This document shows positions 13,537 to 20,078 of a stretch of DNA of 64,000 nucleotides, piece by piece (position 1 is the first letter of the stretch; each line of letters begins with the position of its first letter). A program made the translations under genes and the position numbers. The DNA comes from Alicyclobacillus herbarius DSM 13609 (GTDB lineage: Bacteria; Bacillota; Bacilli; Alicyclobacillales; Alicyclobacillaceae). The notes beneath the pieces were generated by a model, which did no database searches, was not told the DNA's origin, and worked only from the letters and a program-made list of their open reading frames with translations. The DNA lies in assembly GCF_000430585.1 (NCBI RefSeq), contig NZ_AUMH01000003.1:124001-188000 (forward strand), in the 5' to 3' direction.

Positions 13537-14238
13537 TTGAATAAACTGTACGCTTCCGCCGCGGATGCTGTCCGTGATATTCCAGACGGAGCTACCTTGC
13601 TCGTCGGTGGGTTTGGCTTGGTGGGTATCCCCGAAAACCTGATTGAAGCGCTACGTAATCAGGGCACAAAAGGCCTCACCTGCGTGAGCAACAACTGCGG
13701 CGTGGATGACTGGGGACTCGGCTTGTTGTTGCAAACCCGCCAGATCCGAAAGATGGTCTCCTCCTATGTGGGCGAAAACAAGACCTTTGAGCGCCAGTTT
13801 CTCCAAGGAGATTTAGAAGTGGAGCTGGTCCCCCAAGGTACGCTCGCCGAGCGCATCCGGGCCGGAGGAGCCGGCATCCCCGCCTTCTACACCCCTACCG
13901 GTGTCGGTACTCCCGTGGCCGAAGGGAAAGAGACGCGTACGTTTGCTGGCCGAGAATACGTGTTGGAACGCGCGATTATCGGAGACTTTGCGCTGATTAA
14001 AGGTTGGAAAGCCGATACCTTGGGCAATGTGATCTACCGCAAAACGGCCCGGAACTTCAATCCGTTAATGGCTGCCGCCGGGCGCGTCACCATTGTCGAA
14101 GTCGAGGAGCTCGTAGCGCCCGGTGAGCTGGATCCGGACGCGATACACACCCCCAGCATCTACGTGCAGCGCATCGTCGTTGGCGCTCGCTATGAAAAAC
14201 GGATTGAACGGCGCACCGTTCGCGCAAGTGGTACATGA
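13537..14238 (+). CDS. scoA: 3-oxoacid (succinyl-CoA:acetoacetate) CoA-transferase subunit A
   Basis: The alpha subunit of a family I CoA-transferase, moving CoA between acyl groups such as succinyl and acetoacetyl. The 233-residue protein shows [16 protein letters not shown] (CoA-binding glycine loop), [12 protein letters not shown] and YTPTGVGT, as in ScoA. Start at TTG 13537, supported by a strong GGGGAGGAG site 6 bp upstream. The beta subunit follows 50 bp later with its own ribosome binding site. Confidence 0.93.
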
Positions 14239-14288
14239 CGCTACGCAGCGTACGGATAGAAACTGGTCAAGAACAGGAGGAGACGTCA

Positions 14289-14948
14289 ATGGCACTCACC
14301 CGCAATCAGATTGTCAGACGTGCCGCCGCCGAGTTAAGGGATGGCGACTATGTCAATCTCGGCATCGGCATGCCGACTTTGGTCGCCAACTACATCCCCG
14401 CGGACATTGAGGTGATTTTACACTCCGAGAACGGGTTGCTTGGCATCGGCCCTTATTCGGCCCCTGGCGAGGAAGACCCGGATCTGATTAATGCGGGCAA
14501 GGAGACGATCACTATTCGTAAAGGCGCTTGTTTCTTCGACAGCGCCGAATCCTTCGCCATGATTCGCGGCGGTCACATCGATGTTGCCATCCTCGGCGCA
14601 ATGGAAGTGTCGGAACGCGGTGACTTAGCCAATTGGATGATCCCAGGAAAAATGGTGAAAGGCATGGGCGGTGCGATGGACTTAGTGCATGGGGCGAAAC
14701 GAGTCATCGTCACGATGGAACACTGTAATAAACAAGGCGAACCGAAAATCCTGCGTCAATGCCGTCTTCCCTTGACCGGACAGCGAGTGGTCCAGCGTAT
14801 CATCACCGACCTGGCCGTGATTGATGTCAAAGACTGCGGCTTGTTCTTGCGAGAGATTGCCCCTGGCCATTCAGTAGACGAAATCGTGGCAAAAACCGGT
14901 GCACCCCTCGCCGTCGCGCCAGAAGGCGTTCGTCCCATCGCCATCTGA
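14289..14948 (+). CDS. scoB: 3-oxoacid CoA-transferase subunit B
   Basis: The 219-residue beta subunit, which carries the catalytic glutamate in SENGLLGIG (about 43-51) that forms the CoA thioester intermediate. [15 protein letters not shown] and [15 protein letters not shown] are also typical. ATG 14289 has AGGAGGAG 8 bp upstream. It pairs with scoA, and the pair would allow use of acetoacetate or ketone-type acids. Confidence 0.94.
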
Positions 14949-15060
14949 CGATCCGGTGATTTCCCTGTATTCTATGATACAATGGCCTTCATGGATGGCA
15001 GATTCCTGCACATCTGCGTATCTGCTGCGCGGCGTATTGCGCCAGAGGAGGTCAGCCAGA

Positions 15061-15549
15061 ATGTCAGTTCAACCGGATACGTTTCGCCGCGTCTTGGCTC
15101 GCTTTGCCAGCGGTGTTACCGTTGTGACCATGTCCGATGGAATACTGGCCACCGGTCTAACCGTATCGGCCTTCTGTTCGGTTTCCCTGAATCCCCCTTA
15201 CATCCTCGTTTGCATTAATAACACATCGACCGCTCTGGATCTGGTTCGGAAGAGCGGAGGCTTTGCAGTCCACATCCTGACGGAAGACCAAGCGGACTTA
15301 TCCAAGCGTTTTGCCAGCCAGGGGACAGATAAGTTGGCCGGTCTGACATACCAAAGCGGGCTGTACGGCGCGCCTGTATTGGACGGTGTGCTCGCTCATC
15401 TGGAATGCTCGCTGGTTCAGGAGATTCCAGCAGGAGACCACTTTATCCTGATTGGCCAGGTGGAGCGTGGAGACGTCCACCGGGATGCCCAACCGCTCCT
15501 CTATTTTACAAGCCAATACCGCCAACTCGCGTCGACTCCGATTATGTAG
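15061..15549 (+). CDS. Flavin reductase domain protein (HpaC-like)
   Basis: A 162-residue flavin-binding split-barrel protein. The pattern FASGVTVVTM, TGLTVSAFCSVSLNPP and CSLVQEIPAGDHFILIGQV is that of NAD(P)H:flavin reductases which deliver reduced FMN/FAD to two-component monooxygenases. ATG 15061 follows AGAGGAGG. No monooxygenase partner is adjacent. Its stop lies 3 bp from that of the convergent glycosyltransferase gene. Confidence 0.85.
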   Translation: MSVQPDTFRRVLARFASGVTVVTMSDGILATGLTVSAFCSVSLNPPYILVCINNTSTALDLVRKSGGFAVHILTEDQADLSKRFASQGTDKLAGLTYQSGLYGAPVLDGVLAHLECSLVQEIPAGDHFILIGQVERGDVHRDAQPLLYFTSQYRQLASTPIM

Positions 15550-15552
15550 ACT

Positions 15553-16656
15553 TCACCTGGATACGGCCATCGCTCGTTTTCGTTCCGCCTGCTGCAAGGC
15601 GTGCTCGACGACCGCCCACGCGGCGTCGGGTCGCGCCAACCGCTGGCATGCCGCACGCATCTGTTCGCGCGTCCCAGGTTGTCGTAAAACCCGCAACGCC
15701 CGGACAAACTCCGCCGGCGATGCAACCGTCTTGGCCGCGCCGTGTCGGCTTAAGAATTCCGCATTATCCGATTCCTGGCCAGGCTGTGGCCGGAAAATCA
15801 ACATGGGACACGTTGAGGCCAAGCATTCAGAGACCGTCACCCCGCCCGATTTCACCACGGAAAAGTCGGCTCCTTGCAGCCAATCGGCGACATGCTCGAC
15901 AAACGGCAGCGGGTGAATGTGCGGCCACTCCTCTGACCAACGCGCCACCTGCTGGTACATCTTGGAATTCCGGCCGCACATCACGTACACCGCGTGATCC
16001 GGAAACAACCGCCCCGTCCACCGTAACGCGGTCAAGAGATGGGGAAACACACCCCGCCCCCCCGTGGCATACAGAATATACGGCCGCTCAGCCCGAAGCC
16101 GACTCTGTGTCCGACAGAACAGAAACTGTTGTCGGATAGGAATCCCGGAAACCACCAACTCCTGGCCAGGCTGCAAAAACTCTTCCATCCCACCCGCAAG
16201 AGATGCATTCGCGATGAAGTATGTATCAATGTTGTGATGGAACCACCGACCATGCACCGTGAAGTCTGTAATGACCTCGCCGATATACGGACGCCAGCGG
16301 CTTGCGGATAAGGACGCCAGCGCATGGTCTGGAAACAGCTGTAGCACAATGTCCGGTTTTTGCTCCTCCAACTGTTGGAGCACCATTTGCCGTGAAAAGG
16401 CCGATAGCATTTTCCAAAACGTGTGATCCGGTCCAAAGCGAGCGGTCACCCGATAACTCATGCCATACATATGAGGTGCAAACCGAGTGGTCCACTCATA
16501 CGTTCGTTCGTTCAGTTTGGCAATCCGTGGGCTGGTCTCGCGATAAATGTCCAAGACAACGGTTTCGACACCGCGGGCGGTGAATGCGTCGTGCAAGGCG
16601 CGTGCCACCTGATGGTGGCCATCCCCGATGTGCGCGGTCAAGAGTAAAGCCTTCAC
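15553..16656 (-). CDS. GT28-family (MGDG synthase/UgtP-like) glycosyltransferase, paralogue 1
   Basis: A 367-residue enzyme of the group that adds glucose or galactose to diacylglycerol. It has the N-terminal acceptor signature AHIGDGHHQVARAL (about 8-21), the ITDFTVHGRWFHHNID segment of MGDG synthase-like proteins, and the C-terminal donor-binding FSVVKSGGVTVSECLA and PQPGQESDNA. GTG 16656, with GAGGTG 6 bp upstream, is preferred over longer frames. It is the last gene of a four-gene unit with a second GT28 paralogue, a polysaccharide deacetylase and a YkoP-like protein. Relatives make the glycolipid anchor for lipoteichoic acid; the exact sugar and acceptor are unknown. Confidence 0.82.
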   Translation of the reverse strand: MKALLLTAHIGDGHHQVARALHDAFTARGVETVVLDIYRETSPRIAKLNERTYEWTTRFAPHMYGMSYRVTARFGPDHTFWKMLSAFSRQMVLQQLEEQKPDIVLQLFPDHALASLSASRWRPYIGEVITDFTVHGRWFHHNIDTYFIANASLAGGMEEFLQPGQELVVSGIPIRQQFLFCRTQSRLRAERPYILYATGGRGVFPHLLTALRWTGRLFPDHAVYVMCGRNSKMYQQVARWSEEWPHIHPLPFVEHVADWLQGADFSVVKSGGVTVSECLASTCPMLIFRPQPGQESDNAEFLSRHGAAKTVASPAEFVRALRVLRQPGTREQMRAACQRLARPDAAWAVVEHALQQAERKRAMAVSR

Positions 16657-16666
16657 CCTCGACACC

Positions 16667-17275
16667 TCACGTTCGATTCGGTTTATCGTCGGACGCAGCC
16701 TTGATGGACTGCGCATCAACACCCGGTTTCCCATGCATCAGAATCAATCGTTTTTTGCTCGTCGCCACGAGTTTCGGTACAAACGCGTCCGGGTGCGCCT
16801 CTAGCAGCCGATTCGCGTCCGGATTGAACGCCCGCAGGACCTGACGCAGATACCAACGGGTGAGCGGAGCCAGAACCCGGTTGCGAATCGGCAAGGCCTC
16901 GAACCCCAACCGCTCAATCCCCCGATGGATGAACGTAATTCCGTAGAGAACCTGTACGTCCGCAAATTCCGGATGCGCCACCCGCTCAGCCAGCGCCGGC
17001 AAAGACTTACGCGCCAGTTGCAACAGCTTGACCGTAGAAGCCAAGATGTTTTTTTCCTCTCTCAACACACGGGCGACCAGGGTATTGTTCACGTGCAACT
17101 CAACGACCGGCTGTCCGCGGACGACGCGTACCCCGTCAATCTCAAACGGTTTACCTAAATAATGAGTCTTCGATAGATAGAATAAATCTTCCACGTCGGG
17201 GCGGATCGGCTGGACCTTAAACAATTTTCGAAATCCAGCTTCCCAAAGGTCCCAGAATCGTCCTTTGGCGTCCAT
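16667..17275 (-). CDS. YkoP-like protein of unknown function
   Basis: A 202-residue, basic, soluble protein without signal peptide. Its pattern (FWDLWEAGFRKLFKVQ near the N-terminus, KTHYLGKPFEIDGVRV, and LHVNN..LAR) recalls YkoP proteins, which occur beside or fused to polysaccharide deacetylases and glycosyltransferases in Bacillota. ATG 17275 follows AGGAGGGG by 7 bp and overlaps the deacetylase stop by 1 nt (TGATG), so the two are coupled. The phrase LHVNNTLVARVLREEKN suggests a small lipid- or sugar-handling domain, but no catalytic motif is visible. Confidence 0.6.
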   Translation of the reverse strand: MDAKGRFWDLWEAGFRKLFKVQPIRPDVEDLFYLSKTHYLGKPFEIDGVRVVRGQPVVELHVNNTLVARVLREEKNILASTVKLLQLARKSLPALAERVAHPEFADVQVLYGITFIHRGIERLGFEALPIRNRVLAPLTRWYLRQVLRAFNPDANRLLEAHPDAFVPKLVATSKKRLILMHGKPGVDAQSIKAASDDKPNRT

Positions 17276-17994
17276 CAACGCCCCTCCTTTCCGTACCACT
17301 CATTGAGCGTGCGAAACGAATACCCGGCTTCTCGGGCGCGTCGGCCCAACTCGGGTATGAGGGCAATCACCTGTTCAGGGGCCCCCGTCTCGGCGCCCAA
17401 CGTCTCATCGCTGTCGTGCAGGACGATGATGGCTCCTGGGTGTAGCCGGTTTACAATGCGCTCGAGCACCTGTCCGGGTCGCTGAACCCGCCAGTCACCC
17501 ACCATAATGGACCACGTCACCAAGCGGTGTGTGCGTGGGGCCGTCAATAACGTAACCAGGTTCAACGCGCCCCAGGTTGGCCGATAGAACCGGGGACGTA
17601 TGCCGAACCTCTGCACAAGGGCCGCGGTCGTTTTCCGGAATTGCCGGACGGCGGCTGCGGGTGGGAGCAGCGGCACAAAGGAATGGGTCCAGCCGTGTAT
17701 CTCCACCTGATGCCCGTCGGCCAACATGCGCAACACTAAGTCTGGATGCGCTAACGCTTTTCGGCCAATGACGAAAAACGTGGCTCGAATCTCGGCGTCC
17801 CGCAAAGCATCGAGCAGACGGTCCGTGTATTTCGGGTCTGGACCGTCGTCGAACGTCAGGGCCAGTTCGCGCCGCGTTGGCCCCTGACGAATGGCCCACA
17901 ACCGAAACCCCCGGGTCAACAAGTTCGGAATCAGGGAATACAGGCAGAGCAACAGCAAGAGAATCAGGCAACCCCATCGCCACACTTCGCTCAC
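17275..17994 (-). CDS. Membrane-anchored polysaccharide deacetylase (NodB domain)
   Basis: A 239-residue carbohydrate esterase 4 protein. After one N-terminal transmembrane segment (about 6-24) comes the NodB core: LALTFDDGPDPKYT (catalytic base and metal Asp pair), the HGWTHSF metal histidines, FYRPTWG and IIVLHDSD. The active domain would face outside and remove acetyl groups from a cell-wall or lipid-linked glycan. The start is GTG 17994, overlapping the upstream glycosyltransferase stop by 4 nt (GTGA). It is coupled to genes on both sides. Confidence 0.88.
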   Translation of the reverse strand: MSEVWRWGCLILLLLLCLYSLIPNLLTRGFRLWAIRQGPTRRELALTFDDGPDPKYTDRLLDALRDAEIRATFFVIGRKALAHPDLVLRMLADGHQVEIHGWTHSFVPLLPPAAAVRQFRKTTAALVQRFGIRPRFYRPTWGALNLVTLLTAPRTHRLVTWSIMVGDWRVQRPGQVLERIVNRLHPGAIIVLHDSDETLGAETGAPEQVIALIPELGRRAREAGYSFRTLNEWYGKEGR

Positions 17995-19154
17995 TCCCAA
18001 CCACCGGAGTCCCCGACCATCGGTAACGGATGGAGCGGCTTGTCCGCGAAGGTATGAATCAGCGTATCGGCGATACGCCCCGCCGCGCCCCGTCGATAAG
18101 CCGCCCGGGCCGCCGCCCGCATGGCGGCCAACGACTCCGGATGGGCCGCAAGACGGTTGAGTTCCTCGGCTGCGCCCTGAATGTCCTTAATCCATCGGGC
18201 AGCCCCGAGATCGACCACGTACTGCCCGTTACAGACCTCTTGGCCGGGAATGGGATGGTACAACAACATCGGCAGTTCCATCGCCAACGCCTCGGCGACG
18301 GTGATGCCACCCGGCTTGGTTACCACCACGTCTGCCATGGCCATCCACCGTTCCACTTCCGTAGTATAGCCGAGCACGCGAATCCGCTCCCCGTGCAACC
18401 CGTGCAGGCGTCGGTATAGTTTGTCGTTGCGGCCGCAAATCACGACAAACTGCAGGTCGCTGGCCTGCATGACCTCCTTCCAATCGGACACGTCCGCCAC
18501 CAATCCCGCACCGCCGCCCATCAAAAGAACAAGCGGTCTCTCAGGGTCCAGTCTTTCCGCGCTGCGAAGCTCCCGACGGCGTGCCGCCGACTGTCGGCTT
18601 CCCGCCTGTTCAAAGCGAGACCGTATTGGCATACCGCTCACGACAATGCGCTCCATCGGCACACCTAACGCGTGCAGCTCCTGCCCAACCGTTTCCGTGG
18701 CGACAAAATAGAGGTCGGTATGCTCTTGAACCCACTGCCCATGGGCAGTGTAATCCGTCAAGACCCCAACAATCGGAATGCTTGTGAATCCCTGCTCGCG
18801 CAGCTGGGCCATCACACCGTTGGGGGTCGGAAATGTGCTGACGACGACATCCGGCGCATACGCCTTAAGGCAGCGCTTAAATTTCGCCATCCCCAAACGG
18901 TTAATGCGGCGCTGTAACGACGAATCGGGATCCAACCTCGACATGGACCTATAAAAGGCTTCATAAAGCGCCGGAGCTAACTGGACACCCTGAATCAGAC
19001 TGAATTTCGCAAACGACCGCAGGGCCGGATTCAGCCATTCGGTGTAATCGACAAGCTTCACGGTCGCCCCACGACGACGCAAGGCTTCCCCGACCGCATT
19101 GGCCGCTTGTATGTGCCCGTCGCCAAAAGAGGCGCTCATGAGCAAGACTCTCAC
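17991..19154 (-). CDS. GT28-family (MGDG synthase/UgtP-like) glycosyltransferase, paralogue 2
   Basis: A 387-residue glycosyltransferase with the same layout as the one at 15553: SASFGDGHIQAANAVG at the N-terminus, GVLTDYTAHGQWVQEHTD in the acceptor domain, GGGAGLV and VVVTKPGGITVAEALA for UDP-sugar binding, then PIPGQEVCNG. This is the better match to processive diacylglycerol glycosyltransferases. Start GTG 19154 (CGAGGA 8 bp upstream); an ATG 9 bp earlier overlaps that site. It heads the four-gene minus-strand unit. Two paralogues in one unit suggest successive sugar additions. Confidence 0.85.
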   Translation of the reverse strand: MRVLLMSASFGDGHIQAANAVGEALRRRGATVKLVDYTEWLNPALRSFAKFSLIQGVQLAPALYEAFYRSMSRLDPDSSLQRRINRLGMAKFKRCLKAYAPDVVVSTFPTPNGVMAQLREQGFTSIPIVGVLTDYTAHGQWVQEHTDLYFVATETVGQELHALGVPMERIVVSGMPIRSRFEQAGSRQSAARRRELRSAERLDPERPLVLLMGGGAGLVADVSDWKEVMQASDLQFVVICGRNDKLYRRLHGLHGERIRVLGYTTEVERWMAMADVVVTKPGGITVAEALAMELPMLLYHPIPGQEVCNGQYVVDLGAARWIKDIQGAAEELNRLAAHPESLAAMRAAARAAYRRGAAGRIADTLIHTFADKPLHPLPMVGDSGGWE

Positions 19155-19421
19155 TGCAATCATCCTCGCTGCGTCATAAGAGTCGTACGGATTTCCGCAG
19201 GCAAACTGCACAGCGGAAGATACATGTACACAAGTACCAAAACAAGTATATCACCACCACCCACGATATACGATCCGCCTCACGCCAACTCCTCAGTCAT
19301 TCGAACATATCGTGTCCAACACGCCCCTAGGCCCCTATTGCCGACCTGTGAAACGTATAATAAACTGAGAAGGTACGGACGATTCAACCAACACCGTTTG
19401 TTCCGTGAATGGGGGTTGAGC

Positions 19422-20078
19422 ATGAAGCAACTATCACCTGCAGGCTTAACGGTCGTCGCTATCGGCGCTCTCGTGGCCATCGCGTTTTGGGTGGTCGGGT
19501 TTTTCGGTCTTCCGAACGACGTGACGCATCGTAACCTCGCGCAAAACCCCAAGTTGGCCGTTTCGGTTGCGACCACCAACGCGAACAAGGGTGGAGGCAC
19601 TTCGCCCAGCAGTCCTTCATCCCAGTCCGGCGCCGGGCAAACGGCTCCCATCGCCAAACTGGACAAAGCCGCCAAGACCATCGATCTCAACATCACGACG
19701 GATCAAGACATGGCGTTTAACGGGTACAGCAAAGGCGCTCTGAAAATCGCCGTGCCCACGGGCTGGACGGTCAAGGTCAAGTTCAGCGATACCTCAAACA
19801 TTCAACACAGTGTGGGCTTTACGGACTGGAGTCATCGTCAGGGGACGACGTTTCCCGCCGCGTTCTCCCATTCTCTCATGCCCGGCTTTCAAACGGGTAT
19901 CACTTCGAGCCATCCCCCAGTCGCGTTCCAGTTCAAGGCCGACAAGGCGGGTAAATACGCCATGGTCTGTGGGATTCCAGGACACGCATCCATGGGTATG
20001 TGGGACGAATTCGACGTTTCGAACAACCTGTCGTCCCCAACCATCACTACGGATAAAGGGACACAAAAGGCCTCGTAG
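19422..20078 (+). CDS. Sulfocyanin-like membrane-anchored blue copper protein
   Basis: A 218-residue electron carrier on the outer membrane face. Residues 9-30 form an N-terminal membrane anchor, 51-75 a Gly/Ser-rich linker, and 85-203 a cupredoxin domain. Type 1 copper ligands are visible as H129 (NIQHSVGF), C183, H188 and M193 in the segment CGIPGHASMGM. That C-G-x-P-G-H spacing is the sulfocyanin signature known from acidophilic archaea and some acidophilic Bacillota. ATG 19422 has GGGGG 7 bp upstream. No oxidase subunits are adjacent. It probably shuttles electrons to a terminal oxidase. Confidence 0.85.
   Translation: MKQLSPAGLTVVAIGALVAIAFWVVGFFGLPNDVTHRNLAQNPKLAVSVATTNANKGGGTSPSSPSSQSGAGQTAPIAKLDKAAKTIDLNITTDQDMAFNGYSKGALKIAVPTGWTVKVKFSDTSNIQHSVGFTDWSHRQGTTFPAAFSHSLMPGFQTGITSSHPPVAFQFKADKAGKYAMVCGIPGHASMGMWDEFDVSNNLSSPTITTDKGTQKAS

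Follow-up and report, generated by a model that had tools for sequence, protein, structure and literature searches.

We analyzed a block of four adjoining genes in Alicyclobacillus herbarius DSM 13609 (contig NZ_AUMH01000003.1, positions 124,001 to 188,000; this whole stretch of 64,000 nucleotides is called the window, and coordinates refer to it unless another locus is named). The host genome amounts to 3.3 Mb in 57 contigs, and the window sits on a contig of 206,881 bases. The block encodes two glycosyltransferases, GTa and GTb, on either side of a polysaccharide deacetylase (PDA) and a member of the YkoP family. The four genes are as follows (aa, amino acids).

17991-19154, minus strand: GTa, MGDG/UgtP-type glycosyltransferase, 387 aa, GTG start, PF06925 and Glyco_tran_28_C
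17275-17994, minus strand: PDA, membrane-anchored polysaccharide-deacetylase-family (CE4-type) protein, 239 aa, PF01522
16667-17275, minus strand: YkoP protein, 202 aa, PF22790
15553-16656, minus strand: GTb, second MGDG/UgtP-type glycosyltransferase, 367 aa, PF06925

A preliminary description of this DNA had reported four coupled minus-strand genes at 15553-19154, and all of them were found there. The overlaps it gave between GTa and PDA (four bases, GTGA) and between PDA and YkoP (one base, TGATG) are present. The 11-bp gap before GTb needs correction, as the GTG start at 16656 lies 10 bases beyond the YkoP end; an alternative GTG at 16665 is possible. The GTa frame is open upstream as far as 19211. 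A promoter-like site for the cassette was looked for, and none was found.

Glycosyltransferases and conservation of the cassette

Both glycosyltransferases passed the Pfam curated cut-offs of PF06925 and Glyco_tran_28_C (25 and 22 bits). GTa matched MGDG_synth PF06925 with E 5.5e-28 (98.6 bits; Glyco_tran_28_C, 38.3 bits) and GTb with E 5.8e-22 (79 bits; Glyco_tran_28_C, 24 bits), in agreement with the earlier view of two paralogous GT28 enzymes resembling MGDG synthase and UgtP. The best NCBIfam model for GTa was PRK13609, diglucosyl-diacylglycerol (DAG) synthase, at 274 bits, and the scores for UgtP diglucosyl-DAG synthase lay below the equivalog cut-offs (274 and 226 bits for PRK13609 against 500 or 557).

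The conservation of the cassette was then compared among Alicyclobacillaceae. Of the 41 genomes compared, 40 have PF22790, and 27 have the complete GTa-PDA-YkoP-GTb block on one strand. Independent occurrence of the four genes, which the preliminary description had named as evidence against a common system, was not what most of the family showed. The full cassette was also found in a genome attributed to A. acidocaldarius 104-IA (L124), whose two PF06925 proteins occupy the GTa and GTb positions. Of the 15 genomes in genus group g4, 13 have exactly two PF06925 proteins, as do all three genomes of g1. Order and strand were the same in 27 of the 29 cassette loci examined, the remaining two ending at contig edges, indicating that the arrangement is not due to chance. 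Since some of the neighboring genes are conserved too (a flavin reductase flank is common to 23/29 cassette loci from eight genera), part of this conservation is inherited synteny and not independent evidence. When named genomes were scanned with an alignment of close YkoP sequences (the narrower A2, as A1 was too diverse; 12 Alicyclobacillaceae loci), matches came only from Alicyclobacillaceae, the nearest being A. kakegawensis and A. shizuokensis at 80% identity. These results support the earlier proposal of a glycolipid-type operon in which two glycosyltransferases and a deacetylase work on one common product.

Variants of the block occur as well. A YkoP-GTb pair without PDA is found in some genera (L044, L046, L047, L053 and L140); at L046 the pair is preceded by a gene for a DedA-like membrane protein with a VTT domain, which may be a lipid scramblase. 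Additional YkoP copies with no GTa or PDA nearby were seen at L040, L049, L132 and L133, in two genomes (G024 and G444). Around the cassette in the window, a sulfocyanin-like (SoxE, PF06525) blue copper protein is encoded directly upstream on the opposite strand (19107-20078, plus strand). On the other side, two coenzyme A transferase subunits and a flavin reductase are encoded at 13537-15549 (plus strand), the latter stopping 3 bases short of the GTb end.

The deacetylase and the YkoP protein

PDA matched Polysacc_deac_1 PF01522 above the cut-off (E 2.7e-28, 98.9 bits); the host genome holds only seven PF01522 places. It has one N-terminal hydrophobic helix, and together with the PF22790 match of the next gene this confirmed the membrane deacetylase and YkoP-like protein described before. 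The window PDA holds the motifs TFDDG, HxxxH, RPTWG and LHD, and the metal/catalytic motifs TFDDG, HxxxH and LHD were kept in 28/28 loci of the four-gene arrangement (form I) that were tested. The PdaB and NodB models of NCBIfam were matched with E about 1e-30 (NodB, 5.9e-30), both scoring below the equivalog cut-offs (106 against 237 bits, 104 against 240). Because all such scores, including those of the glycosyltransferases, are well below the equivalog cut-offs, the names UgtP, PdaB and NodB could not be assigned as such.

According to the positive-inside rule, the positively charged flank of a membrane helix is cytosolic. The charge of the window PDA is +4 following the helix and 0 preceding it. 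Charges were counted from longest open reading frame (ORF) starts, and removal of near-identical rows left 28 separate and 26 fused proteins. Charge was more positive after the helix than before it in 26 of the 28 distinct separate PDAs (means +3.5 vs +0.5), which suggests, by this rule, that their catalytic domain is on the cytosolic side. Such a location would fit the use of acyl donors (acyl-coenzyme A [CoA] or acyl-acyl carrier protein [ACP]) and contradicts the deacetylation outside the cell that had been proposed earlier.

The window YkoP matched PF22790 with E 5.1e-44 and 150 bits against a gathering score of 27. Its relative in B. subtilis, which served as a control and belongs to the same family, is called a protein of unknown function in the accessible part of PMC6212828. 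In an alignment of 46 YkoP rows (A1), H61 and G124 were invariant, N64 was present in 45 and E59 in 43. The three rows with K in place of E59 (L088, L092 and L106) have no deacetylase beside their YkoP. The conserved polar residues lie on a predicted beta strand, which hints at an active site.

The AlphaFold (AF2) model of the window YkoP (P0003) had a predicted local distance difference test score (pLDDT) of 90.8. As a replicate, the YkoP domain of a fusion protein, 29% identical to P0003, was modeled with a pLDDT of 90.6. Fold searches of the PDB with Foldseek and VIA-align led from both models to GNAT-type acetyl- and acyltransferases, with weak matches (Z about 8 or below); apart from 7kys in the replicate list, whose title is not that of a transferase, the rows shown belong by title or known family to the GNAT type. 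For the replicate, the first Foldseek rank was 4mfz, an acyltransferase with decanoyl-CoA (E 0.014, probability 0.96), which was also second in VIA-align (Z 7.9, 3.0 Å over 126). Entries of the teicoplanin glucosamine N-acyltransferase held VIA-align ranks second to sixth, among them 4q36 (with octanoyl-CoA and teicoplanin) and 6iix (named orf11*) at Z 7.5. We take 4mfz, 4mfk, 4q36 and 6iix to be one enzyme, the teicoplanin N-acyltransferase Orf11*. A viral relative of YkoP was found neither by scan nor by fold (no E <0.001).

GNAT motif A, [QR]xxGx[GA], belongs to the CoA loop that follows beta 4. It was seen after the invariant histidine in 0/46 rows of A1 and in 0/34 rows of A5. Given the weak fold match and the absence of this motif, we say that YkoP, whose models resemble the GNAT fold, may work like a GNAT N-acyltransferase, rather than that it is a classical GNAT enzyme.

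Pairing of YkoP with deacetylases outside the cassette

In a second arrangement (form II), found mostly in a sister family, PDA and YkoP are encoded in one ORF. Among 27 form II loci read, 23 have a GTa within about 6 kb of the fusion, and in 22 of these 23 (all but L075) an MFS-family gene lies between the two; the Pfam name of the MFS protein was checked for L055. Several genomes carry both forms. In a glycosyltransferase tree of 62 rows, which excluded rows <340 aa and part of the loci, form I GTa and form II GTa made up two well-supported sister clades, and GTb a third, separate and faster-evolving group with longer end branches.

PF22790 was found in 67 of 398 sampled Bacillota genomes. 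Thirty neighborhoods were read, from the best-scoring of the 67 genomes with matches, and in these the deacetylase was fused to YkoP in 15 and was the next gene in seven. Moreover, a megaplasmid of Thermomicrobium roseum, which belongs to another phylum, encodes a DUF2334 deacetylase, two GT2 glycosyltransferases and a YkoP in a row (L143:3783-6525). In this independent assembly the glycosyltransferase type changes and the deacetylase-YkoP pairing stays. These arrangements across families and phyla indicate that the stable core consists of deacetylase and YkoP, accompanied by a glycosyltransferase of varying type. The membrane lipids of T. roseum are diol-based, according to the consulted portion of PMC2615216.

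Some YkoP genes are found in other surroundings. The lone YkoP of Bacillus velezensis (L145) and similar lone copies at L088, L092, L106 and L111 carry K instead of E59. At L098, L099, L103 and L110, YkoP lies near genes that by eye resemble slipin/stomatin and signal peptide peptidase SppA. A PF22790 match in Thermus composti came up in a control search, and PLSDB returned the same three records for three YkoP queries, none from Thermus or Deinococcus.

A proposed acyl-exchange pathway and its alternatives

In Nod factor synthesis, NodC transfers GlcNAc (N-acetylglucosamine), NodB deacetylates it and NodA N-acylates the freed amine. By this logic, the pairing of a deacetylase with an N-acyltransferase makes sense only with acyl exchange. 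From the genes, synteny, fused or adjoining PDA and YkoP, motifs, charge bias and fold likeness observed above, we infer substrates, direction and order of steps, and a catalytic role of YkoP, as follows. All steps would take place at the cytosolic face of the membrane. GTa would move GlcNAc, or another N-acetylhexosamine, from a UDP-sugar onto diacylglycerol. The membrane-anchored PDA would strip off the acetyl group to give glucosaminyl (GlcN)-DAG, and YkoP would acylate the freed amine with a long chain donated by acyl-CoA or acyl-ACP, yielding a lipid with three chains. GTb would finally attach an outer hexose. The predicted product, a hexosyl-(N-acyl)glucosaminyl-diacylglycerol, would be of the 'glucosamidyl glycolipid' kind. 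We consider it moderately probable that the four genes encode an acyl-exchange route to an N-acylglucosaminyl glycolipid; the exact product is less probable than the pathway.

The proposed steps correspond to those of NodC, NodB and NodA, and PDA matches the NodB model. They differ in that the proposed acceptor is a lipid, that the glycosyltransferases are of the GT28/MGDG rather than the Nod GT2 type, and that YkoP has no NodA match in Pfam and PDA scores under the NodB cut-off. Orf11* gave the best Foldseek match to the replicate YkoP model and acylates N2' of glucosamine. However, identity is about 10-12%, YkoP matches only the C-terminal half of the 320-residue enzyme, and the Orf11* acceptor is a soluble antibiotic. 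In lipoglycopeptides of the teicoplanin type, the acyl chain is loaded on N2' of glucosamine (PMC7567792, in its available passages).

Several observations weigh against the acyl-exchange pathway. The best Foldseek E values were only 0.04 and 0.014 for the two YkoP models (none <0.001), the VIA-align Z scores lie in a range flagged by the tool as prone to common arrangements, and for both models a toxin rather than a lipid enzyme topped the VIA-align list. The CoA-loop motif is missing, and no sequence relative of YkoP was found in the PDB, where one row was at chance level (E 0.51). Donor and acceptor of both glycosyltransferases are deduced rather than read from the sequence, and the named models closest to them are glucosyl transferases. 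The PDA-YkoP fusions have no net charge bias (more positive after the helix in 8/26, before it in 9/26), and their loci carry the MFS gene between GTa and the fusion. Finally, YkoP has no deacetylase within 1.5 kb in 8 of the 30 best Bacillota loci, and on the B. velezensis plasmid pDMB05-1 it stands alone after a MarR gene (L145:5977-6531), beside DNA ligase D (LigD) and Ku.

The alternative that survives best, although unlikely, is that of the preliminary description, in which the glycolipid is flipped and deacetylated outside, leaving a free amine that adds positive charge to the envelope, with YkoP as an accessory. Deacetylases of the PdaB/PgdA type act outside the cell, PDA has one N-terminal helix, and in form II the MFS transporter could flip the lipid before the fused deacetylase acts. 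On the other hand, the charge bias of separate PDAs points inside, and YkoP, which is fused to the deacetylase in form II, has a model resembling acyltransferases that need cytosolic donors. A mere accessory role is also at odds with the fused or adjoining deacetylase in 22 of the 30 best Bacillota loci. Given the GNAT-like YkoP model and the association of YkoP with deacetylases, a new acyl group on the amine is more probable than a free amine.

A slightly less likely alternative is that the same acyl exchange takes place on a hopanoid, giving the N-acylglucosaminyl tetrahydroxypentane-hopane known from A. acidocaldarius (PMC8537080, from the part consulted). Squalene-hopene cyclase (PF13243) is encoded in 34/41 genomes of the family, including the host. 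However, the best GTa models are of the diacylglycerol type, and three genomes of 97-100% completeness (G008, G016 and G021) hold the full cassette (L034, L045 and L043, respectively) with no PF13243 match. A hopanoid as required acceptor was rejected on account of these three genomes; the enzymes could serve both diacylglycerol and hopanoid acceptors.

It is improbable that YkoP is a catalytically dead or otherwise used GNAT-like protein (a regulator, a scaffold or an enzyme of another transfer) and that the deacetylase alone alters the glycolipid. Such a role would agree with the absent CoA-loop motif and with the lone Bacillus-type YkoPs that have K for E59, but not with the invariant H61 and G124, with an E59 that is lost only where no deacetylase adjoins, or with the putative active site on the beta strand.

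Least credible is ordinary UgtP-type synthesis of glucolipid or lipoteichoic acid anchors beside an unrelated peptidoglycan or sporulation deacetylase: GTa and GTb share family and domain layout with UgtP/YpfP, and diglucosyl-DAG synthase and PdaB are the top NCBIfam matches, but all scores are far below the cut-offs, the glycosyltransferase genes are linked to a deacetylase and YkoP, whose pairing is seen again in other families and in a second phylum, and the anchor role is disfavored since no LtaS-like protein was found in the 57-contig host assembly. The only three PF00884 places form one cluster and were rejected as LtaS, the scanned one (L148) matching sulfatase/SGSH models and the next being read only as an open frame. 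A sulfatase-family gene cluster lies at G000:C23:432-5111 of the host genome.

Lipids of the class predicted by the acyl-exchange pathway have been described. A 1976 study reportedly has 'glucosamidyl glycolipids' of Bacillus acidocaldarius (now A. acidocaldarius) in its title, and the detailed structure is said to be Glc-(N-acyl)GlcN-DAG. In glycolipids of Thermus and Meiothermus, an N-acyl-hexosaminyl unit occurs together with three aliphatic chains (PMC3035268, as far as its text was available). The Alicyclobacillus lipids come from the same genus as the cassette, and T. composti has the PF22790 match; these lipids are known as chemistry. In the portion of the open-licence literature covered, no gene assignment for the N-acyl glycolipids of Alicyclobacillus or Thermus, and no function for the YkoP-deacetylase pair, was found. 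The enzymatic logic of acyl exchange is already known from NodC-NodB-NodA.

More tentatively, PF22790 may be a widespread, unrecognized family of sugar-lipid N-acyltransferases, with the PDA-YkoP fusion as a bifunctional acyl-exchange enzyme. If so, three-chain N-acyl aminoglycolipids would be common in Bacillota and beyond rather than a curiosity of thermophiles. N-acylglucosaminyl lipids of Alicyclobacillus and N-acyl-hexosaminyl lipids of Thermus and Meiothermus have long been known, and the cassette offers a four-gene candidate with one testable step per gene. If the proposed pathway is true, it would assign a role to an uncharacterized domain found in about one-sixth of the sampled Bacillota genomes, and a route to three-tailed membrane lipids, perhaps for heat and acid tolerance.

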